The notes beneath the pieces are model-generated. The model worked only from the letters and a program-made list of their open reading frames with translations. It did not search any database and was not told the DNA's origin. From positions 62,001-126,000 of the forward strand of contig NC_060203.1 of assembly GCF_020623625.1 (NCBI RefSeq): DNA of 64,000 nt. Direction: 5' to 3'. Positions within the stretch are counted from its first letter, which is position 1; each line of letters starts with the position of its first letter. The stretch is from Saccharomycodes ludwigii (lineage: Eukaryota > Ascomycota > Saccharomycetes > Saccharomycodales > Saccharomycodaceae). Below, piece by piece: positions 4,167-53,810 of the stretch. The translations under genes and the position numbers were made by a program.

Positions 4167-4605
4167 GTTTAATGCGATATATGTAATAGTTGGTAGGTTT
4201 TCTTTATTTTTTTTTTTTTTTTTTTAGAAAAAAATAGGATAAAAAGAGGGGAGTGGGAGTGGACAGGGGAAATAAATCTTAAAGAATAAAAATTGAAATG
4301 AAAGAAAAAAAAACACTTTTGTTAGGTTTCTTACCCAAATATAAACTTTACAGTGGAAATGTGTTTAAAATAACGTACGTAGAAAGTTCAACAAGTATTA
4401 AAAACTAAAGAAGTTACTTTGAATGTTACAAATCGTTCACAAACGCTCACTTTTAAAAATAAATACAAAAGAAAAAAAAAAAAAAAAAAAAAAAAAAATA
4501 ATGCTAATATTTCCTGAGTACTGCCGGTTTTCTGACCTCAAGAACTGTAGTGTCTCAGAAATGCACGTATTCATCTGACACAGCCAATGAAATTCCATGA
4601 AATTC

Positions 4606-21230: not shown

Positions 21231-21498
21231 CATAGTAAGCGTAATTTAGGATCACTTCTAGTAATTAGCCATTCGATTTGGCAATTAATTTACTATTCTA
21301 TTTCAGTCTTTTTTTTTTTTAATAATAATATAATTATAAAGATTATTTAAAACAATAGCTCAATCAATAAGAATATCCTGAAAAGTGTTCATTCTTTCAT
21401 ATTCTAACTTGTTCTATCCCTCATTCATATTTTTACTAATTTGGTTAATGTGTTTGGTTTATGCGGCTCCATTTTTATCTACCTGTCCTTTTACAACA
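21231..21498 (-). repeat. Degenerate solo LTR of a Ty3/Gypsy element
   Basis: A 268-bp sequence that aligns along its length with the right LTR of the neighbouring element (shared blocks GTAAGCGTAA, GGCAATTAATTT/GGTAATTAATTT, AAAGATTATTTAAAAC, AAGAATATC.TGAA). It ends in ACAACA, directly followed by 5 bp (AAAAT) and then the next LTR. It is the outermost and most diverged unit of the stack, so probably the oldest insertion. Confidence 0.7.
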
Positions 21499-21503
21499 AA
21501 AAT

Positions 21504-21831
21504 TATCGTAAGCGTAACTCAACATTAGTTGTAGTAATTACGGGTTCGGATTATGGTAATTAATTTCTTGTTCTATTTAGGTCTTTACATATAATAAAGA
21601 TTATTTAAAACTATAACTTAAATACTTTTGATGAGTAACTTGATAATAAATCATCTCTTTATATATGATTTATTTTCACATTTATATTTGATATTAATCT
21701 TTTCCAACATTTCGTTGTTATTCTATAAACGGCATCTTTGTTACAAAGATTTCCTATTAAGGTAATTTCCATTACGGAGACTTCCTGTATGTTGGTTGTA
21801 ATATATGTTTACTTGGTTTCATATTACGACA
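21504..21831 (-). repeat. 3' LTR of the older Ty3-like element
   Basis: 328 bp. Its R/U5-side end (left, TATCGTAAGCG...) matches the partner LTR for roughly the first 115 bp, while the U3 side is largely different. Terminal inverted repeats are TGTCGTAA/TTACGATA (element sense). Confidence 0.75.
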
Positions 21832-24800
21832 TCCTCCTCCTCCGAAACTGAGTGCTTCCAGAGTTGTTTAAAGTTTGCCAATAAGGCTGTCTTCCTGTAG
21901 TCAGGTAATTTGTTAAAAATCCTAAGTGGTATTTCTACAGATAGAGTTGGATCAACATCGCTGAACTTTGCATACAGCTTAGTCTTATCCTCTGTGATTC
22001 CAATTACACTAACTATTTCGGTTAATCTAAATTCCATCTCTTTTTCAGTTCTTGGCGGATGTTTTGGGTACCTGTCTGGGTCATGTTTGAATTCTTTCAA
22101 CCATTCAATGTTAATTACTCTATGTGTCTTTTTAGTACTTGGTAAATCTATTTCATAGGCGTTATCATTAATTTTCTTTACTACCTTGAAAGGTCCTAAA
22201 TATATCGGTTGTATCTTCCAGTATTTGCCTTTAACGAAGTATGCGTCTCTGTGTACTAATACATGTTGTCCTGGTTCTAATATAATTTGTATTCTCTTAT
22301 TGTTCTTGGCTGCTTCATTGTTTTCAGCGTTTGCAGCTAAAAAATCTTTTGTTCGCAATTCTATTGCTTTCAATTTCTTGGCTAATTCGACTGCGGAGTC
22401 ATTTTGTGCTGAACTCTCCCTCTCCGTAAATATTTGTGGTTTATTAGGAATATAACCCAAATCAACTTCAAACGGAGCAGCTCGAATACTAGATAAATAA
22501 GTCGGATTGTAACAAAATTCTAAAATGGGCAAAAAATTATCCCATTGTTGGTGATGTACGGAGCAATAGCTTTTTAACATACGACCTAAGATTTGAATAA
22601 CTCTTTCAGTTTGTCCATCTGTTTGAGGATGGTTACTACTTGACATTTTTAATTGAATTCCTAATCGTTTCACTAATTCTTTGTATGCAGTGCTCATCAT
22701 TCTAATATCCTTGTCTGAGGTAATAAATCGGGGAAATCCGTGGTAAGCAAAAACGTGTTTAAATAGTAAATTAATAAGTTCAATGGAACCTGTAGTGGAC
22801 TTGCATGGTATAAAGTTGCATCGTTTCGAGAATCTGTCTACGACAATTAAAATAAAGTCGTTCTGACGAAATGTAAGTGGTAGTCCTGAAGCAAAGTCAA
22901 TAGTAATATGTGACCATCGTCCTTTTGGAACATCTAAAGATTGTAGTAAACCTTGTGAGGCTCGTCGGTGTTGCTTCATAACTTGACAGTTGTAACAATG
23001 TGCTACGTAATCTTGTATATTCGAATATAAACTAGGCCAATAATAGTCTTTTGCAATTTTATGAAAAGTGATATCGGCACCAAAGTGTCCTCCTAATATA
23101 GCATTGTCATGATAGTACTCTAACACTGAATTTCTTGCTTTTTGTGGTACACATAGTCTGTCTTTGTAATATAAGAAATTGTCTTTGTCTATTGTATATG
23201 CTTCTTGAAATTGTCTTGATGAAGTCCATTTTTTCTGATATTTCTTGAATAAATGTAAATCCATTCCTTCTGTGTTCACATTATCTATATGTTTCATTCC
23301 GTGCAAAACTGCAGCACACCAGGGGTCATTCTCATAAAGTTCAAGCCATGATTTTGCATCAATGGTATCTACTTCTAAGCTTTTACTGTCTCGCGATAGT
23401 GTGTCAGCAATATGATTCATTGTACCTTTTAGGTATGTCAAAGTGAAGTCGTATTCACTTAGCGGGTCTAACCAGCGGGAAATTCTTCTTGACGGTTCTT
23501 TCTTATTTTGTAATGATAAAAGTGAAATATGGTCTGTTCTTAATTCAAAATGGTTTCCATGTAGTAAATATCGGAAATGATTTAGTGCTTCAATTATTGC
23601 TAATAATTCTAATTCTCCAGGTGGGTAATTCTTTTGTGCACCTTGTAAGCTTTTACTGAAGTATCCAATAACTCCAATTAGCTTGTTGTTTTCTAATTTT
23701 TCTAATACAGCTCCAAGTCCATCATACGAGGCATCGGTAGTTAGTCTCATGTAACATTTGGGTGTATACGGGACTAATATTGGTGGTGAGCCTAGTGCTT
23801 TCTTTAAAGTTTCAACGCTTTGTGTTTGTTCGTCTGACCATTCAGTCTTCTTTGCTGTAAATTCAACTAGTGGCTTAGCTATATGACTACATCGTGGTAT
23901 AAACCTTCTGTAAAAATTAATCATTCCTAAGAATCTCTGAACACTCTTAATATCTTGGGTAACTATTAAGTTCTTAATAGCATCGGTTTTTCCTTGTAAT
24001 GGTCTGATACCATCACTACTAATTTCGTGTCCTAAAAATACTACTTTTCTTTGTGCAAAATAACATTTTGATCTTTTTGCAACTAAACCATGATCTTTTA
24101 GTCTTTGTAATACTGTTTCTAAGTGTTTCCAATGTTCTTCTGTATTATCACTGTGTATTAGAATATCATCTAAATAAATACAAACAAATTTTAAATCTCT
24201 GAATATGTCACTCATTAATCTTGCAAATGTTGAAGGTGCATTTCGTAAACCAAAAGGCATAACAGTAAATTGATACTTTCCAAATGGGGTGACAAAACTA
24301 GTCAAGGGTTTGTGTTCCTTTTTCATTGGAATTTGGTAATATCCATTTAATAGATCTAAGGTTGTGAATATTTTTGAAGATCCTAGTTTGGCAAATATAG
24401 TGTCTAATAATGGTAGGGGAAACAAGTCTGGTTCTGTATTTTTATTCAACATTCTGTAGTCAACACATAATCTGTAATCTCCAGATTTCTTCTTTACCAT
24501 GATTATGGGTGAAGCTATTGGGGCTTTGGATTCTTCTATGTATCCATCTGACAATAAGCTATCAACCATTTTCCTTGCTTCTTCTTCAAGCTTGGGTGTA
24601 CTTCTGTAAGGTTGCATTTTTGGAAGTCTCTCGGGATCCTTTAGTATTATTTCATGGTGTACATTTACCAATTTATGTGTTTCAGGTAATAATTTAGTAC
24701 CTACAATATCTCTAAACTTGTTCCTGAGCCATTCTGGAATAAAGTTCCATGTTTTATTTTCCTTTGTTTCAATCGTTACCTCTAATAACTCGTTCAACTG

Positions 24801-25478
24801 TTCTTTGTCCTCGGTTTCTATGTTCAACAGTTCAGGGTTTGTTTCAAGTATGGGGTTTCCGACAATAACCTTGTTGTTAATTGTGTCTAAAATATACGCA
24901 TCTATTTTATATTCTTTGTCGTTAATTGTAAAACGTACTGTTGTAGCTTTGTTCGTACCTTCTTTGGTTCCTTTAATCGCTCCACTTATACTCTGAAAGG
25001 GCGCTTTGGAAACTTCTAATCCAATTATCTCTACTAGATTTCGGCTAATTACACTTGTTGGGGCTCCTGTATCCATCAGGACCGTTGCTAGTGTTGCATC
25101 GTTCAATAACAATTCTACTTCCCTCCTCCTTCCAATTTTAGGAGTTTTCATAATTAAGGGGTATATACGAGAGTTTTTTCTTTCTTTGAGTCTTTCTCTC
25201 ATTCTGTCCATAACTTCATCCCTATCGTCTATTTCTACGATTGGATTCGTGTCTTTTTCTATTCCTGCCGTACTGAGTTGTTCATCTGTACCGGTTTCTA
25301 TTCCTTCAGCTTTTGTGTCGTTTGTAGCTGGTAATTGCGAGTTAGCATCGTAAAACACTTCTTCCTCGTCTTCGTTATAATATTGTTCAAATTTTCCTAA
25401 TTCTTCAGGATCAGCGTAGGCAAATTCTACGTGACCTTGGTATAAACTTTTTATACTATTTGGTTCTGGTCTTTGCAA
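21819..25478 (-). CDS. Ty3-like pol polyprotein (older element)
   Basis: A 1219-codon frame of a fossil retroelement. Domains in order are: aspartic protease with DTGAPTS (about 136), reverse transcriptase with YLDDIL, RNase H with LTTDASYDGLGAVL, integrase with an HHCC zinc-binding region (CYNCQ), DDE-type core (TIDF, TSDKD, and TDGQTERV near the Glu), and a C-terminal GPY/F-type module (YLGPFKVVKK). No chromodomain is evident. The frame ends just inside the 3' LTR, as is common in this family. About 50 per cent similar by eye to the neighbouring element, so a distinct subfamily. Confidence 0.9.
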   Translation of the reverse strand: MQRPEPNSIKSLYQGHVEFAYADPEELGKFEQYYNEDEEEVFYDANSQLPATNDTKAEGIETGTDEQLSTAGIEKDTNPIVEIDDRDEVMDRMRERLKERKNSRIYPLIMKTPKIGRRREVELLLNDATLATVLMDTGAPTSVISRNLVEIIGLEVSKAPFQSISGAIKGTKEGTNKATTVRFTINDKEYKIDAYILDTINNKVIVGNPILETNPELLNIETEDKEQLNELLEVTIETKENKTWNFIPEWLRNKFRDIVGTKLLPETHKLVNVHHEIILKDPERLPKMQPYRSTPKLEEEARKMVDSLLSDGYIEESKAPIASPIIMVKKKSGDYRLCVDYRMLNKNTEPDLFPLPLLDTIFAKLGSSKIFTTLDLLNGYYQIPMKKEHKPLTSFVTPFGKYQFTVMPFGLRNAPSTFARLMSDIFRDLKFVCIYLDDILIHSDNTEEHWKHLETVLQRLKDHGLVAKRSKCYFAQRKVVFLGHEISSDGIRPLQGKTDAIKNLIVTQDIKSVQRFLGMINFYRRFIPRCSHIAKPLVEFTAKKTEWSDEQTQSVETLKKALGSPPILVPYTPKCYMRLTTDASYDGLGAVLEKLENNKLIGVIGYFSKSLQGAQKNYPPGELELLAIIEALNHFRYLLHGNHFELRTDHISLLSLQNKKEPSRRISRWLDPLSEYDFTLTYLKGTMNHIADTLSRDSKSLEVDTIDAKSWLELYENDPWCAAVLHGMKHIDNVNTEGMDLHLFKKYQKKWTSSRQFQEAYTIDKDNFLYYKDRLCVPQKARNSVLEYYHDNAILGGHFGADITFHKIAKDYYWPSLYSNIQDYVAHCYNCQVMKQHRRASQGLLQSLDVPKGRWSHITIDFASGLPLTFRQNDFILIVVDRFSKRCNFIPCKSTTGSIELINLLFKHVFAYHGFPRFITSDKDIRMMSTAYKELVKRLGIQLKMSSSNHPQTDGQTERVIQILGRMLKSYCSVHHQQWDNFLPILEFCYNPTYLSSIRAAPFEVDLGYIPNKPQIFTERESSAQNDSAVELAKKLKAIELRTKDFLAANAENNEAAKNNKRIQIILEPGQHVLVHRDAYFVKGKYWKIQPIYLGPFKVVKKINDNAYEIDLPSTKKTHRVINIEWLKEFKHDPDRYPKHPPRTEKEMEFRLTEIVSVIGITEDKTKLYAKFSDVDPTLSVEIPLRIFNKLPDYRKTALLANFKQLWKHSVSEEEDVVI

Positions 25479-25621
25479 CGGTTGGTTGTAATTATTATTA
25501 TTTTTTTTCTTTTTTTGTAGTAATTTTTTATTGTTTTTGTAGTTTTCTTGTTGTTTTTTCTCTTTTTTTGTAAATCTAGCGATGGTTTTTCTATTTTTCT
25601 GTGTGTTTAAACAGTTTTAGT

Positions 25622-26230
25622 TCAATATCTCTGAGGCGTGGGAGAACTCGCGTTTCTCTTTTGACTCTTCGGACATTTAGAAGCGTAGTGTCCTGAATCA
25701 CCACATTCATAACATAATCCTTTATCTCTACATAAGCTTTCGAGGCGATTTTTCCAATAATCGTTATTTGAGTTGGACTTGTTGAAATTACGACGTTTGC
25801 TGTTATTGTAATCCCAACGTTCTGAGTTGTTGTAATTACGACGTCCTGAACTACTATTACGGTTCATATATTTGGATTGCATGGCATCGATTTCCATGGC
25901 ATCCGAATCATTGCTTGTTGACGTTGGTGTATCATACCAATTTACATTATTCGTTTTAGATCCTAAGTTGTCAGCTCTCCAGGCCATCTCTTCGGCTTCT
26001 CTCAAGGTTTGCGGGTCACGAATTCTCAATTCTCTGCAAATGTCCTTTTTTAACCCAGCGATGAAAGTTACAATTAGGGCTTTTTCTGAGACAAAGTCGG
26101 TAGGCAACAACAATCTAGTTTTCTCGAACTTGTCAGTGTATTCCATAACACTCTTGGTTTGTCTCATTTTATTTAAATCAAGGTACATTTGGTAAGGGTC
26201 GATAGCGGCGCTACCAGATATCGTAAGCAT
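25622..26230 (-). CDS. Ty3-like gag (older element)
   Basis: A 202-codon frame with a capsid-like helical part and one CCHC zinc knuckle (CYECGDSGHYASKC) near the C-terminus, the nucleocapsid signature of Ty3 Gag. It is shorter than the 261-codon gag of the adjacent element, and its frame runs through the primer-binding site from within the LTR, so this gag does not look like the original full-length form. Treated as a fossil. Confidence 0.8.
   Translation of the reverse strand: MLTISGSAAIDPYQMYLDLNKMRQTKSVMEYTDKFEKTRLLLPTDFVSEKALIVTFIAGLKKDICRELRIRDPQTLREAEEMAWRADNLGSKTNNVNWYDTPTSTSNDSDAMEIDAMQSKYMNRNSSSGRRNYNNSERWDYNNSKRRNFNKSNSNNDYWKNRLESLCRDKGLCYECGDSGHYASKCPKSQKRNASSPTPQRY
26206..26217 (-). 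other. Primer-binding site for initiator tRNA-Met (older element)
   Basis: Element-sense TGGTAGCGCCGC is the exact complement of the 3' end of yeast initiator tRNA-Met (GCGGCGCUACCA). It lies 2 nt inside the 5' LTR, as in Ty3. Confidence 0.88.
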
Positions 26231-26541
26231 AACTCAGGATTAGGCGTAGTAATTACGGGTTCAGATTTTGGTAATTAATTTCTTGTTTCGTTTAGGTCTT
26301 TACATATAATAATAATATATATAATAAAGATTATTTAAAACTATAAATCAATCATAAAGAATATCATGAAGATATTCCTCTCTTTTATACTTTTATTATT
26401 CATTCTCGTTCTTATTCTTATTTCCCGATTACGCGGTCGGATCTTATTATTCGGGGCTACATTGTATTACTAATCATGCTTACTAATTGTGTTTACTAAT
26501 TGCTAGTTATCATATGCGTTTGATTGATCTCATATTACACA
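26220..26541 (-). repeat. 5' LTR of the older Ty3-like element
   Basis: 322 bp ending (plus strand) in TATTACACA. Its U3 side is closer to the degenerate solo LTR at 21231-21498 than to its own partner LTR. Separated from the next element's LTR by exactly 5 bp (AAAAA, 26542-26546). Confidence 0.78.
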
Positions 26542-26546
26542 AAAAA

Positions 26547-26980
26547 TGTTGTAAGGTGAAGTGGGCTAAAGATGTTACTTGGTTAGACTCGTTCTAAATC
26601 GATCTTTTCTCGTTATTATATTTCTTCTATATATAATATCTAATTACATAAGTCTAAACTAACTTATACAAACAAGGACAATATATCTACGAAACCCAAA
26701 ACTCTTTAGTGAGATGTTGGCTTTATATACTCCTGTTTTCGGTTGTCGACACGACAACTTTTACAACAATTATGACAGCGCATAGCCTTAGCTTTTCGAT
26801 GCGTTGTTCTCAACTTCGGTACTGCGGTGTTATAGTAGTATTTGCTTTGCTGGCATAATCACTACTAAGCGTAACATCCACGTACAAGTCTCTTTACGGA
26901 TAAATCATAATAACATAGTATCTCACTATTTACGGTTATTAACACGTGATTTATCTTGTTATAAGGTTTACCTTATAACA
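26547..26980 (-). repeat. 3' LTR of the young Ty3-like element
   Basis: 434 bp, TGTTGTAAGG...CCTTATAACA on the plus strand. Same length and, as far as compared by eye, same sequence as 31394-31827. Confidence 0.95.
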
Positions 26981-29900
26981 TCTTCCCCCCTCTCGTCAGA
27001 TACGGACTGCTTATACAACTGTTCAAAATTATTTATCAGAGAGCGGCGTCTCAGCAGTGGAAGCGACTTAAACATTTTTAACGGAACAGCGGCAGTCAGA
27101 CGAGGGTCTACGTGGGCAAATTTACAATAGACTATACCTTCAGACGGTGCAAAACCTATTACACTAGAGATATTTTCGAGCCTATTCCTTAACTCAGTTT
27201 CAGAACGAGGTAGTTCCTTTACATACCTTTCTGAGTCGAACTGATATTTCTTTATCCATCTTACGTTGATCACTCTATGCTTTTTGGAAGTCTTCGGTAA
27301 GTCGACCTCATATGCATTTTCATTTATTACCTTAACAATCTTAAACGGGCCTAAGAATATCGGTTGTAATTTAATGTAACGGCCTCCAGTGAAATAAGCG
27401 TCTCTATGTACCAGAACATAGTCACCTACAGCGAACTTCTCTTCCCTTCTCCCAGGATTAACGGCAACTTCCATGTTGACCTGGTTTTCTTTGAGGAAAT
27501 CTTTTGTACGGAGCGTGATAGCTCTAAGCGACTGGATCAAATCTACAGCCGAGAAGTTCCTTGCGGCTGTTAACGAGGTACTATCTAATAACGGTTCATT
27601 TGGTACATAGCCCAAATCCACTAAAAACGGGGCGGCTTTGACGGCAGAGTGATATGTAGAATTATATACAAATTCTACTTGGGGTAACAATACATCCCAA
27701 CGGCCCTGCTCTAGCCCGGCATATGATCGTAACAGTTGTGTCAATGTTTTAATAGTTCTTTCACTCTGTCCATCGGACTCAGGGTGATTCGAAGAACTCA
27801 TACACAGTTTAATACCTAGTCGTTCTGTAAGTTCTCTGTATGCGTTACCAGTAAATCTAACATCTCTATCACTAACGATCCTCTTCGGGAAACCGTGATA
27901 ACAAAATACAAATTGAAATAACAAATTAATAGTGTATTCTTGAGATAACTCTTTATTACATGCAACAAAGTGAGCACGTTTACTGAAACGGTCCACTACA
28001 ACCAGTATCATGTCTTTACCACTTACTGTCGGTGGTAAACCGGACACAAAATCAATGGATATATCTGTCCATCTTCCTTCAGGGACCTCTAACGGTTTCA
28101 GTAAACCATATTGTCTATTACGGTGAAACTTAAACACTTGACAATTCGGGCAACTTGCGACATACTTTTGAACTTCATGATCTTGACGTGGCCAATAATA
28201 CGATTCGGTGACTTTCTGCAACGTGACATTATAACCAAAATGTCCACCAAATAGACCATGATCATGGTAGGTATTCAACACCAACTGTACCTTACTACGA
28301 GGGACTATGTATCTATCTTTCCAATACAACAAATCCTCCTCTAGACGGATCATTTTTCGAAACGCATTTGACAATCTATAGCGTTTAATGATCTTATTAA
28401 AATAACTTGTATCCGCTTTGCTAACTCGTATCTTCCCAAGATACTCATCTGGATTCAGAGATACTAACAGAGCAGCACAATACGGATCTTCCTCATAATC
28501 ATTCTTCCATTCACACGGATCAATGGATACGAGCTCATCAATAACATTGATTTCATACGGAGCTCTTGATATTGCATCAGCAACGACATTGTCATGACCT
28601 TTAACATACTGTAATTCGAAATCATATTCGGACAATGTATCTAACCAACGGGCAATTCTTGTGCCTGGTTCTTTTGTTGTTTTCAACGACAGTAAACTTA
28701 TATGATCGGTTCTCAACACGAATCGTTTACCATGCAACAAGTACTTAAAATGTTCTAGTGCCGAAATAATTCCTAATAATTCTAGTTCTCCGGCGGGGTA
28801 TCTCTGTTGAGCACCTTGTAGAGATTTAGAGAAATAGGATACGGTACCAACTGGGTTCTTATTTTCGTCCAGTTCTTCTAACACAGCACCAACACCATAT
28901 TTACAAGCATCTGTAGTTAATCTGTAACTAGCTGTAACGTCAAATGGTATCAACACGGGCTGTTCCTGTAACGCTCTTTTTAATGACTTCAGTGCTTTAT
29001 CTTGTGTTACTCCCCACGTTGCTTCTCCGGAAATAAACGTATTAATCGGGCGTGCAATAATGGAGCAACCTTTTATAAATCTTCTGTAATAATTTACCAT
29101 GCCTAAAAAACGTTGTGCTTCCTTAACGGACCTTGGGGTCGGAAACGCACAAATGGCATCAGTTTTACCTTGTAATGGTTCAATCTTACCAGCACTAATT
29201 TGGTACCCTAGAAACTCAACGGACGATTGAAGGAAATGACACTTCTTCAATTTAGCTATTAAGCCTTCAGACTTCAGGCGATCTAGAACAACGTCTAGAT
29301 GATTTAGATGTTCTTCTTTTGACTTTGAGAACACTAGAATGTCATCTAAATAGACACCAACAAATACTAGATCACGGAACAACTCAGCCATATAACGTGC
29401 AAATGTGCTCGGAGCGTTCACCAGACCGAATGGCATCACTTTATATTCATATTTTGCAGTGGGTGTCACAAACGCGGTCTTATATTGGTCTTCGGATCTA
29501 ACCGGTATTTGATGATAACCTGAGTGCAAGTCTAACGTCGAGAATATGGTAGCTTTACCAATTCTACTCAACAAGCTATCTATACGGGGTAACGGGAATG
29601 GATCTTTGACGGTGATCGCATTCAACTTTCTGTAATCAACACACATCCTGTAGCTATTATCTTTCTTCTTAACCAATACAATTGGCGAGCTACACGGGGA
29701 TTTTGACGGTGTGATGAAGTTCTTTTCTAACAAGTCATTAATCAAGTCGTTAACAATACTTTCATTTTTCGGTGTCAACCTATACGGACTTATTCGAGGA
29801 AGTCTACCATCAGGCGCCAGAACAATCTCATGTTCAACCTTCCTATCCTGTATTTTCGAGGGACACAATTCATTGGATACAGTACTCTTGTACTTCAATC

Positions 29901-30768
29901 TCAAGGATTTCGGCAACAGTTCAAACGTGTTACAATCCTTTTTCGGAGATTCACTAACGGAAATAACAAATATTTCATCTTCTTCTTTAAAATACCTAGA
30001 CGGATTATCTACGTAATCAATAGGTAATATACTGTCATACGGAACCAATACATTTTCGGGTTCGACAGTTTCTCCCAGGTGTAGTAACTTCGGGTAAGAC
30101 CTTAAAACAGGGTCACCAATAATAATCTTCTGCGAGACGGCAGCAGTAACGTAAGCATCAAACTTATACTTTATATTTTCAATCGACATAACAATACTAG
30201 TCGCAACACTTGATGTGGCTGTTTCAGCGGAGACAGCGCCATAAAAAGTGAACGGCGGAGCTGAATACGTTTCTAATTTCAACTCTGAGACCACTGAACG
30301 ATTCACAAATGTAGTCGGTGAACCAGTGTCTAACAATACTAGCATTTCTTTATTATTTACTACACCCTTAACTTCTCTTTTACAACCAACCAATGGTTTC
30401 TTTTCAATTAACGGATAAATTTCGAATTTCGGTAACTTTACAAATTCGCGTTTATCATCACTCACAGATACTTCTGGACACTTTTTTTTCTTTTTTTCTG
30501 TTTTTTCCTCTTTTTTCTCTTTTTTCTCATTTTTCTCTTTTTTTCTATTTTTATGTTTTTTATACTTATATTCACTATAACTATTCATACTCTCAGTAGT
30601 TCTTCTGGGAACATTCCTTGGAGCTATGTCCGCCTTTCTTGCATCTAAAGCACAAACCCAACCTAAGACAATCTGATCTAGACATGGTTTTACGTGCCAT
30701 CGGCCTAAATCTATTATTGTTAGCGTTATTCGGGGTATAGTTATATTGACGAGATCTCCGGCTATCAC
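26968..30768 (-). CDS. Ty3-like pol polyprotein (young element)
   Basis: A 1266-codon open frame. The first part overlaps gag and is followed by a Lys/Glu-rich spacer. Domains then run: aspartic protease (LLDTGSPTTF), reverse transcriptase (YRMCVDYRKLN, VYLDDILVFS), RNase H (LTTDACKYGVGAVLEE, LRTDHISLLSLK), integrase zinc region (CPNCQVFKFH), DDE core (ISIDFVSGLPP, VSDRDVRF, ESDGQSERT) and a GPF module (IFLGPFKIVKVINENAYEV). The true N-terminus would arise by frameshift from gag, not at the first Met. The stop lies inside the LTR. Retroelement fossil class, apparently intact frame. Confidence 0.93.
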   Translation of the reverse strand: MIAGDLVNITIPRITLTIIDLGRWHVKPCLDQIVLGWVCALDARKADIAPRNVPRRTTESMNSYSEYKYKKHKNRKKEKNEKKEKKEEKTEKKKKKCPEVSVSDDKREFVKLPKFEIYPLIEKKPLVGCKREVKGVVNNKEMLVLLDTGSPTTFVNRSVVSELKLETYSAPPFTFYGAVSAETATSSVATSIVMSIENIKYKFDAYVTAAVSQKIIIGDPVLRSYPKLLHLGETVEPENVLVPYDSILPIDYVDNPSRYFKEEDEIFVISVSESPKKDCNTFELLPKSLRLKYKSTVSNELCPSKIQDRKVEHEIVLAPDGRLPRISPYRLTPKNESIVNDLINDLLEKNFITPSKSPCSSPIVLVKKKDNSYRMCVDYRKLNAITVKDPFPLPRIDSLLSRIGKATIFSTLDLHSGYHQIPVRSEDQYKTAFVTPTAKYEYKVMPFGLVNAPSTFARYMAELFRDLVFVGVYLDDILVFSKSKEEHLNHLDVVLDRLKSEGLIAKLKKCHFLQSSVEFLGYQISAGKIEPLQGKTDAICAFPTPRSVKEAQRFLGMVNYYRRFIKGCSIIARPINTFISGEATWGVTQDKALKSLKRALQEQPVLIPFDVTASYRLTTDACKYGVGAVLEELDENKNPVGTVSYFSKSLQGAQQRYPAGELELLGIISALEHFKYLLHGKRFVLRTDHISLLSLKTTKEPGTRIARWLDTLSEYDFELQYVKGHDNVVADAISRAPYEINVIDELVSIDPCEWKNDYEEDPYCAALLVSLNPDEYLGKIRVSKADTSYFNKIIKRYRLSNAFRKMIRLEEDLLYWKDRYIVPRSKVQLVLNTYHDHGLFGGHFGYNVTLQKVTESYYWPRQDHEVQKYVASCPNCQVFKFHRNRQYGLLKPLEVPEGRWTDISIDFVSGLPPTVSGKDMILVVVDRFSKRAHFVACNKELSQEYTINLLFQFVFCYHGFPKRIVSDRDVRFTGNAYRELTERLGIKLCMSSSNHPESDGQSERTIKTLTQLLRSYAGLEQGRWDVLLPQVEFVYNSTYHSAVKAAPFLVDLGYVPNEPLLDSTSLTAARNFSAVDLIQSLRAITLRTKDFLKENQVNMEVAVNPGRREEKFAVGDYVLVHRDAYFTGGRYIKLQPIFLGPFKIVKVINENAYEVDLPKTSKKHRVINVRWIKKYQFDSERYVKELPRSETELRNRLENISSVIGFAPSEGIVYCKFAHVDPRLTAAVPLKMFKSLPLLRRRSLINNFEQLYKQSVSDERGEDVIR

Positions 30769-31378
30769 TTATAGCGTCGAGTTCCATGGCGTCTGGGTCC
30801 ATTATCCGGGAACTATTGAGATCAGGAAACGGTTCCTTATACGACTTCATGTTGATCATCACATGCTTCCAAGCCGTCTCCATCGCTTCCTGCAACGAGT
30901 CGGGTTTGACCACTCGTACATATTGTACGACATTCGGTGGTAAACCATATAAGTACTGATCGATTTTGGCATTTTCGGACCAATACGCATCAGGTAGCAA
31001 ATCCACCAATCGAAAGTAACGGTCGCTATACTCTTCAATTGGTACCTGGCGGGTCATGCGTAACTCTCGAATCTTCTGTACGAGGTAGAACGAGTCAGCT
31101 GCGCCTTGAAAATGGTTCTTGAAATCCACTACAAAGTTGTCATAGGTAAGGCCTTCAAAGCCATTATTCGTACCATACGAGACAAACCAACGTGCAGCAG
31201 GTCCTGTCAAGGAACGTCCAAGCGTTGCGATCTTCGTAGCTTCATTTTCAATGTTCCTAGTGGCAATCTGGATGTGAACTGTAGCTAGAAAATCTGATAT
31301 TTCATAGATATCTTTCCTTCCATCGAAAGAACGTGGTGTATTCAACTTGATATCGTTATCTAAATTATCTAAATACAT
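30593..31378 (-). CDS. Ty3-like gag (young element)
   Basis: A 261-codon frame with a Ty3-type capsid region (SLTGPAARWF, LRMTRQVPIEEYSDRYFRL) and a CCHC zinc knuckle (CFRCKKGGHSSKEC) at the C-terminus. The ATG begins one base after the primer-binding site, so the leader between primer site and gag is almost absent. Confidence 0.9.
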   Translation of the reverse strand: MYLDNLDNDIKLNTPRSFDGRKDIYEISDFLATVHIQIATRNIENEATKIATLGRSLTGPAARWFVSYGTNNGFEGLTYDNFVVDFKNHFQGAADSFYLVQKIRELRMTRQVPIEEYSDRYFRLVDLLPDAYWSENAKIDQYLYGLPPNVVQYVRVVKPDSLQEAMETAWKHVMINMKSYKEPFPDLNSSRIMDPDAMELDAISDSRRSRQYNYTPNNANNNRFRPMARKTMSRSDCLRLGLCFRCKKGGHSSKECSQKNY

Positions 31379-31379
31379 A

Positions 31380-31391
31380 GCGGCGCTACCA
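31380..31391 (-). other. Primer-binding site for initiator tRNA-Met (young element)
   Basis: Identical TGGTAGCGCCGC in element sense, 2 nt from the 5' LTR and directly abutting the gag ATG region. Confidence 0.9.
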
Positions 31392-31393
31392 GA

Positions 31394-31827
31394 TGTTGTA
31401 AGGTGAAGTGGGCTAAAGATGTTACTTGGTTAGACTCGTTCTAAATCGATCTTTTCTCGTTATTATATTTCTTCTATATATAATATCTAATTACATAAGT
31501 CTAAACTAACTTATACAAACAAGGACAATATATCTACGAAACCCAAAACTCTTTAGTGAGATGTTGGCTTTATATACTCCTGTTTTCGGTTGTCGACACG
31601 ACAACTTTTACAACAATTATGACAGCGCATAGCCTTAGCTTTTCGATGCGTTGTTCTCAACTTCGGTACTGCGGTGTTATAGTAGTATTTGCTTTGCTGG
31701 CATAATCACTACTAAGCGTAACATCCACGTACAAGTCTCTTTACGGATAAATCATAATAACATAGTATCTCACTATTTACGGTTATTAACACGTGATTTA
31801 TCTTGTTATAAGGTTTACCTTATAACA
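31394..31827 (-). repeat. 5' LTR of the young Ty3-like element
   Basis: 434 bp. Its outer end is followed by AAAAA and lies 14 bp upstream of the tRNA-Gln gene, close to the expected Pol III start, the characteristic Ty3 target. Confidence 0.95.
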
Positions 31828-31841
31828 AAAAATGTGTAATC

Positions 31842-31913
31842 GGTTCTATAGTGTAGTGGTTATCACTTTCGGTTTTGATCCGAACAACCCCAGTTCGAGT
31901 CCGGGTAGGACCT
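31842..31913 (+). tRNA. tRNA-Gln (anticodon TTG)
   Basis: A 72-nt cloverleaf. Acceptor stem GGTTCTA/TAGGACC, anticodon stem TTCGG/CCGAA enclosing the loop TTTTGAT with anticodon TTG at positions 34-36, and a T-arm with GTTCGAG (B box). No intron. Almost identical to yeast tRNA-Gln(UUG). A run of nine T (31917-31925) follows as the Pol III terminator. It is the insertion target of the retroelement stack on its 5' side. Confidence 0.97.
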
Positions 31914-53493: not shown

Positions 53494-53810
53494 GTTAATA
53501 ATATTACGGGTTGATATGTAAAAAGAAAAAAAAAAAAGAAAAAAATTTTATTTAACCTTTTATTATTGATTTTTTTCCCTCTCTCCATTATATTTAATTC
53601 AATTGATTTCATGACCATCTTTATTATTTATTTATAATTATTATATTCTATTTATTTATTATATAATATTTGCTTACATAATCGATATGTATATAGCTTA
53701 TTTTTTTCTCTTTCTTTTTTCTCTTTCTTTTTTTCTCTTGTTATTCCGAGGCTATCGGTATACAGGTTGTGGAAGAGCTCCGCATAACTTACAATTATAT
53801 TGCTTTTACT

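Follow-up and report, generated by a model that had tools for sequence, protein, structure and literature searches.

The tRNA-Gln locus

We analyzed a 64,000-bp stretch of Saccharomycodes ludwigii DNA (the window; C4:62001-126000 of a 12.5-Mb genome in eight contigs, named C1, C2, and so on), in which retrotransposon sequences lie upstream of a gene for a glutamine transfer RNA (tRNA-Gln). From left to right, the locus has a solo long terminal repeat (LTR), the 5-bp interval AAAAT, a middle Ty3-type element with dissimilar LTRs, the 5-bp interval AAAAA, a young Ty3-type element with identical LTRs, and another AAAAA plus 9 bp before the tRNA-Gln gene (Table 1). Both elements are oriented along the minus strand; their 5' LTRs face the tRNA, and the primer-binding site lies beside the right LTR. 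The original prediction, made from the sequence alone, had described these three units and the exact 5-bp intervals between them, and the LTR boundaries and intervals held on alignment. It had also proposed that LTR divergence gives the time order of the insertions, and this part was not supported, as described below.

Gag, protease, reverse transcriptase, RNase H, and integrase follow in this order in both elements (Pfam), as in Ty3-type elements (Metaviridae). Ty3_capsid matched both gags, although in the middle element the match covers profile positions 92-179 of 198 only, and Ty3-G Gag-Pol was the best solved-structure match for both elements. The predicted Ty3 type was therefore borne out. 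The integrase resembles a chain of structure 7q5b in sequence similarity alone, so contact with the transcription factor TFIIIB is putative. Three Ty3-type families were found in the genome, with six full-length copies each: A (which includes the young element), B (which includes the middle element), and C. The primer-binding site is the same 13 letters in all 18 of these copies. Once CCA is added, its last 12 letters correspond to the end of a tRNA-Met(CAT) gene, which we take to be the initiator tRNA-Met gene, and the pattern occurs at three places; four other Met tRNAs that we examined have different ends. The 5-bp target duplication matched at 5/5 positions in 15/18 full-length copies, or in 17/18 if two B copies are shifted by one base, and a full copy at C5:941264 had 4/5. 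With LTR ends defined in the same way, a 5/5 duplication was present in 36/46 insertions examined in this genome (38/46 with that shift).

The young element has LTRs identical at 434/434 positions, no private substitutions in its internal region (0/4411), and a 5/5 target duplication without adjustment, the only unit at this locus of which that is true. Its LTRs have the properties of a pair from one integration. This copy, nearest the tRNA, is the last arrival, as had been predicted. At the other end of the stack, the solo LTR is strongly diverged from every listed relative, and its age cannot be read. Its matches to other copies extend mostly over positions 2-133 only, and it is 73% identical to the right LTR of the middle element over positions 2-205. 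The solo LTR duplication matches at 3/5 positions, or at 4/5 when a shift is allowed.

A young body between mismatched LTRs

The two LTRs of the middle element are identical at 207/304 aligned columns (68%), with six gap events and a Kimura two-parameter (K2P) distance of 0.43. However, its internal region is 95.8-99.1% identical to all five other full copies of family B that were found: 4336-4344 of 4385-4386 columns (about 99%) in four of them and 4201/4386 in the fifth. Private internal substitutions number only 11/4385 (0.25%), so the LTR divergence is out of line with the internal divergence. The original prediction had called this copy older because of its LTR decay, a reading contradicted by the young internal region and the open pol frame. 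The target duplication is 4/5 (AAAAT/AAAAA); moving it by one base, so that it includes a base from the end of the solo LTR, makes it 5/5. A-rich target duplications are weakly informative.

We searched the genome with the middle-element LTRs, using the best 40 of 87 candidates for the 3' LTR and the best 40 of 75 for the 5' LTR, and with the C LTR, using the best 40 of 82; LTR counts are thus lower bounds. The listed A and B LTR places were fetched with their flanks, as were the C LTRs in part. In the matches shown, the first 128 bases of the middle-element 5' LTR have 90-93% identity to B LTRs from other copies; identity to the partner 3' LTR, whose length differs there, is 80%. From 26347 on, the 5' LTR differs from the five other B copies at nearly every column. 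This U3 resembles old decayed LTRs (O type), with a best match among the fetched loci of 88% over 129 bp and 74-85% for the next nine listed. A recent donor of 26347-26541 was not seen among these loci, and in the search with the whole 5' LTR the best match for the U3 part was 87% over 120-256. The U3 of the 3' LTR is 98.5% identical to C5:941408-941607, in the copy at C5:941264.

During reverse transcription, a single template U3 gives rise to the two U3s of a new copy. Therefore, judging from their sequences, the LTRs of the middle copy are not a pair from one integration. Their divergence probably reflects recombination with an older LTR, in which case it gives no reading of age. We also considered reciprocal hybrid LTRs, with old sequence at the U5 end of the left LTR, but the comparison did not show them: the left LTR is mostly B-type throughout. 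It has two private bases in its first 30.

A 301-bp loss near the primer site (gap placed at 26202) is common to the middle copy and the copy at C5:941264. Their gag frames have 203 codons, compared with 291-292 in the other four B copies, and in both the first in-frame ATG is inside the 5' LTR. The overlap of open frames also points to a frame change in or near 25594-25616 that separates the pol body from the gag-overlap frame. Because the start of gag is lost and the pol frame is changed, the middle copy would not be expected to be self-sufficient. The gag-deleted unit is present at two tRNA genes (21504-26541 and C5:941264-946288), and it may have been mobilized with help or copied at the DNA level. 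DNA copying between the two loci is a suggestion that rests on two LTR sites (11 and 20), with the A at position 11 found in these two alone among the six B copies. Such copying is at odds with LTR position 31 and with a difference in length.

Mismatched LTR pairs in family B

Pol identity to family B over matched parts is 51% for family A and 44% for family C, and within B, pol is 97-100% identical among at least six internal copies. The LTR pairs of family A are identical at 434/434 positions in 6/6 copies, and those of family C at 360/360 in five copies and 357/360 in one, so that no pair is below 99% among the six of either family. The family B pairs match at 207/304 (window), 284/292, 437/438, 337/408, 420/421, and 397/401 positions, with gap events in five of the six.

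The pair with 337/408 belongs to a second mismatched B copy, C1:2450040-2455588, which has a 5/5 duplication. Of 176 informative sites in this copy, the first 80, which cover the left LTR and the neighboring end of pol, all agree with the copy at C1:1657393, the last 68 (right LTR) all agree with the copy at C4:345977, and the 28 in the middle are split 11 to 17. Both mismatched B copies would fit DNA recombination in which the flanks were not exchanged.

We noted other traces of these families. Part of the family C LTR (360 bp) has 77% similarity to the B LTR on its U3 side, as though LTR modules had passed between families. At C2:335821-336261, a B LTR and then its primer site lie at the far end of a C stack, as a remnant B 5' end. 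The single gag relative from the protein search is on contig C2, the same contig as that remnant.

Spacing and stacking at other tRNA genes

An intact LTR end lies 12-17 bp upstream of the mature 5' end in 39/57 tRNAs (Infernal ends), a spacing in line with the Ty3 trait of integration within a few bp of the presumed Pol III start. Five are at 12 bp, 17 at 13 bp, 14 at 14 bp, 2 at 15 bp, and 1 at 17 bp, which places 38/39 at 12-15 bp. Chance spacing at the window tRNA is ruled out by the recurrence of the same spacing at these 39 tRNAs. Family A accounts for 8 of the targeted tRNAs, B for 19, and C for 12; both LTR orientations occur. Where an LTR and a tRNA were neighbors no more than 25 bp apart, the LTR was never 3' of the tRNA. 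The 57 tRNAs are the Infernal calls at the loci fetched for LTRs or pol copies (L009-L064) and in the window, with one small nucleolar RNA match dropped; loci L065-L112 are outside this set. Because the loci were chosen for their LTRs, 39/57 describes spacing and not frequency. A separate count of 42 LTR ends used ARAGORN tRNAs. Frequency was taken from a sample unselected for LTRs, the best 63 of 914 tRNA-search candidates ranked by score. An LTR match lies within 500 bp upstream of 34/63 of these tRNAs and within 20 bp of 20/63.

In the fetched loci, eight other tRNA genes carry stacks with steps of 3-6 bp, and at six of these genes the step is exactly 5 bp (Table 1). Together with the two in the window, this gives 12 stack intervals, of which 10 are exactly 5 bp, one is 3 bp, and one is 6 bp. 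Uncounted are two intervals with decayed LTR ends (L012 and L014) and a 6-bp interval between a C fragment and an A copy in L030. In seven of the 12, the interval coincides with the duplication on the tRNA side, includes it, or overlaps it: the young copy, both at the C4 tRNA-Leu, the C copy at the C2 tRNA-Leu, and those at tRNA-Gly, the C2 tRNA-Asn, and the tRNA-Asp of C5:464139. It matches the duplication at 4/5 positions in two (the middle copy and C5:941264), and at the older C-type LTRs of C2:335445 and C5:924451 it does not match; the tRNA-Thr interval is outside this comparison. In the stack at C5:924053-924821, the inner GGGTT matches neither outer flank and the outer flanks agree (CAGAG), so simple serial insertion is insufficient there.

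Two insertions drawn from the between-locus spread would coincide with p 0.34, which gives a binomial probability of 0.0006 for 10/12, or 0.0016 for 9/11 when one C4 tRNA-Leu interval is dropped as a possible duplication. Steps within a locus are thus more uniform than the spread between loci, but this is only suggestive because the intervals are few and the loci were gathered through LTR matches.

A Poisson estimate from the 500-bp count gives 11.5 tRNAs expected with at least two insertions and 2.8 with at least three; from the 20-bp count, the values are 3.6 and 0.4. Multiple insertions are expected under these estimates with no special hotspot, and we therefore reject one at the window tRNA-Gln. 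Because 0.4-2.8 triple stacks are expected by chance among the 63 sampled tRNAs, stacking is ordinary in this genome, and the window locus is unexceptional.

Table 1. Features of the tRNA-Gln locus (window positions) and stacks at other tRNA genes (contig positions)
Feature	Position	Strand	Description	Basis
Solo LTR	21231..21498	-	Decayed O type	LTR boundary alignment
Interval	21499..21503	no strand	AAAAT, 5 bp	
Middle element, whole	21504..26541	-	Family B	
Middle element, 3' LTR	21504..21831	-	B-type U3	Boundaries and LTR comparison
Middle element, pol frame	21819..25616	-	1265 codons open; protease, reverse transcriptase, RNase H, integrase, SH3-like end	
Middle element, gag	25622..26230	-	N-terminal part missing	Pfam and frame comparison
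Middle element, primer-binding site	26204..26216	-		
Middle element, 5' LTR	26219..26541	-	First ~128 bp B-like; decayed O-type U3 from 26347	
Interval	26542..26546	no strand	AAAAA, 5 bp; left target duplication of young element	
Young element, whole	26547..31827	-	Family A	
Young element, 3' LTR	26547..26980	-	Identical to its 5' LTR	
Young element, pol frame	26968..30768	-	1266 codons	
Young element, gag	30593..31378	-	261 amino acids	Pfam
Young element, primer-binding site	31379..31391	-		
Young element, 5' LTR	31394..31827	-	14 bp from tRNA	
Target duplication	31828..31832	no strand	AAAAA; right target duplication of young element	
tRNA-Gln (TTG)	31842..31913	+	Target gene	tRNA calling including Infernal
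Stack at tRNA-Leu	C4:345085-351546		Three B copies (two solo LTRs and one element); 5 and 5 bp; AAACT duplication each time	
Stack at tRNA-Leu	C2:330176-336261		C, older C-type, B; 5 and 5 bp	
Stack at tRNA-Gly	C2:819713-820464		A then B; 5 bp	
Stack at tRNA-Asn	C2:1889404-1890272		6 bp	
Stack at tRNA-Asp	C5:464139-469845		3 bp	
Stack at tRNA-Asp	C5:924053-924821		5 bp	
Stack at tRNA-Asn	C5:941264-946683		5 bp	LTR end read from sequence (BLAST match ended short)
Stack at tRNA-Thr	C1:2340735-2341260		5 bp	

Elsewhere in the window, the gene to the right of the tRNA encodes the WW and FF domains of PRP40, and over 60% of its length it is 100% identical to an S. ludwigii protein. The young-element pol likewise has 100% identity to an S. 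ludwigii protein over 89% of its length. A weak LTR-like match at 53608-53670 (76% identity, 41 bits) is away from any tRNA and is probably due to chance.

Proposed history of the locus

We favor an account in which repeated integration at one site was followed by recombination of family B sequence into an older LTR and then by integration of family A, and we consider this history, taken as a whole, likely to be correct. A Ty3-type integrase, guided by the RNA polymerase III (Pol III) initiation machinery, would have cut the same 5 bp before tRNA-Gln at least three times, with every new copy landing between the gene and the preceding copy. The 5-bp steps and the layout support the predicted reuse of the same bases. 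The first two arrivals would have been LTRs or elements of an older, now decayed type, of which the solo LTR and the U3 at 26347-26541 would be the remains. A younger family B unit that lacked the start of gag may afterward have entered the second older LTR by homologous DNA recombination, either from cDNA (DNA copied from element RNA) or from another chromosomal copy, which would leave a young body between mismatched LTRs. Family A would then have integrated at AAAAA. In this history the layout, the spacing, the LTR mismatch with its break, and the young body are observed, and we infer the Pol III guidance, how many integrations took place, and the recombination with its direction. The geometry orders the LTRs at the site, with the solo LTR first, the O-type LTR second, and the A copy last. 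It gives no date for the B body by itself, but the private changes (11/4385 compared with 0/4411) suggest that the B body arrived before A.

The same geometry, with the solo LTR farthest from the tRNA, the middle copy next, and the young copy closest, would also result from simple serial insertion, in which the middle element is an old single insertion with long-decayed LTRs. However, an LTR K2P distance of 0.43 does not go with 0.25% private change in 4385 internal sites and an open pol frame of 1265 codons, and the divergence begins at 26347 instead of being spread along the LTR. Simple serial insertion is already contradicted unless the internal region was later replaced, which amounts to the recombination account, and on its own we find it very improbable. 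Alternatively, the element might have arrived with two ordinary LTRs, of which only the 5' LTR U3 was later overwritten by gene conversion from an old LTR elsewhere. No close donor of 26347-26541 is present in the fetched loci or among the best 40 of 75 genome candidates, where the best matches were those given above (88% over 129 bp and 87% over 120-256). We regard this conversion as unlikely. The LTR mismatch might instead be an artifact of assembly in which repeats from two loci were misjoined, and the nearly identical internal copies of family B, at least six, speak for this reading. But the O-type U3 has no near-identical match in the same two sets, and so it is not a repeat that would mislead an assembler. 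In addition, the flanks are compatible with one duplication. A misjoin therefore seems quite improbable.

Several observations weigh against the recombination history. Old and young types share a conserved LTR segment next to the internal region, so that the break can be placed only within about 26244-26347. The duplication of the middle copy is 4/5, and repeats may have been misjoined in the assembly. From the sequence, recombination with cDNA is not distinguishable from conversion by a chromosomal copy. Plain serial insertion also fits poorly at C2:335445-335815 and C5:924053-924821, where the inner 5 bp match the other flank at 1/5 positions. Also, the comparison of 5-bp steps has few intervals, and the two at C4:345085 are perhaps not independent.

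The prediction of targeting was correct, but such targeting is ordinary here, and reading the LTRs as a clock was wrong for the middle copy. Ty3-type targeting in Saccharomycodes is precise to a few bases, as is known in baker's yeast, and repeated insertions at the same site build ordered stacks. LTR divergence would call the middle copy ancient though its body is recent, which advises caution in dating. Stacks at tRNA genes record the order of events, so that LTR clocks can be tested against them, and family B, with its mismatched pairs, offers a means of measuring recombination between resident and incoming copies. More tentatively, two bolder readings might hold, although we consider this less likely than not. 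Each tRNA gene might have a fixed integration address that different Ty3 families reuse to the exact base, as the 10/12 intervals of exactly 5 bp within loci would fit. Family B might also persist partly through DNA copying of its body, including the gag-deleted unit at two loci, into old resident LTRs at tRNA genes, in a yeast with hardly any meiotic crossing over.

Comparison with known systems

Saccharomycodes belongs to the order Saccharomycodales. Extremely suppressed recombination and transposable-element enrichment have been described for S. ludwigii, in a report that compares eleven strains and whose text does not name Ty3 (PMC8567612). Our literature searches on the species, stacking, tRNA targeting, and recombination found no description of S. 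ludwigii families A, B, and C.

The closest comparison is with Ty3 of Saccharomyces cerevisiae (Ty3/Gypsy, Metaviridae), which is alike in domain order, 5-bp duplication, and integration just upstream of tRNA genes; its integration sites have been placed around the Pol III start, at positions -6 and -2 (PMC8632968). However, S. ludwigii has three separate families, and its family B has mismatched LTR pairs, whereas LTR recombination was not detected in recent Ty3 copies in S. cerevisiae (PMC3511429). The tRNA-gene-targeting retrotransposons of dictyostelids are also similar, in that later elements at the same tRNA gene displace earlier ones, leaving the older ones further upstream (PMC5006619, in a table note). 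They differ in having broader distances, 13-33 bp for DGLT-A and 40-54 bp for TRE5 (PMC5911963). Tj1 of Schizosaccharomyces japonicus is another Ty3/gypsy element with a 5-bp duplication that integrates upstream of tRNA genes, but its inserts at Pol III genes are described as all having one orientation (PMC4600332), whereas both occur in S. ludwigii. Gene conversion is noted to disturb LTR dating (PMC7251063). Finally, entry of Ty1 cDNA by homologous recombination with a resident element (PMC5911963) is a route by which a new body can come to lie in an old element. That route was described for Ty1, and for the Ty3-type family of S. ludwigii we infer it from sequence only.

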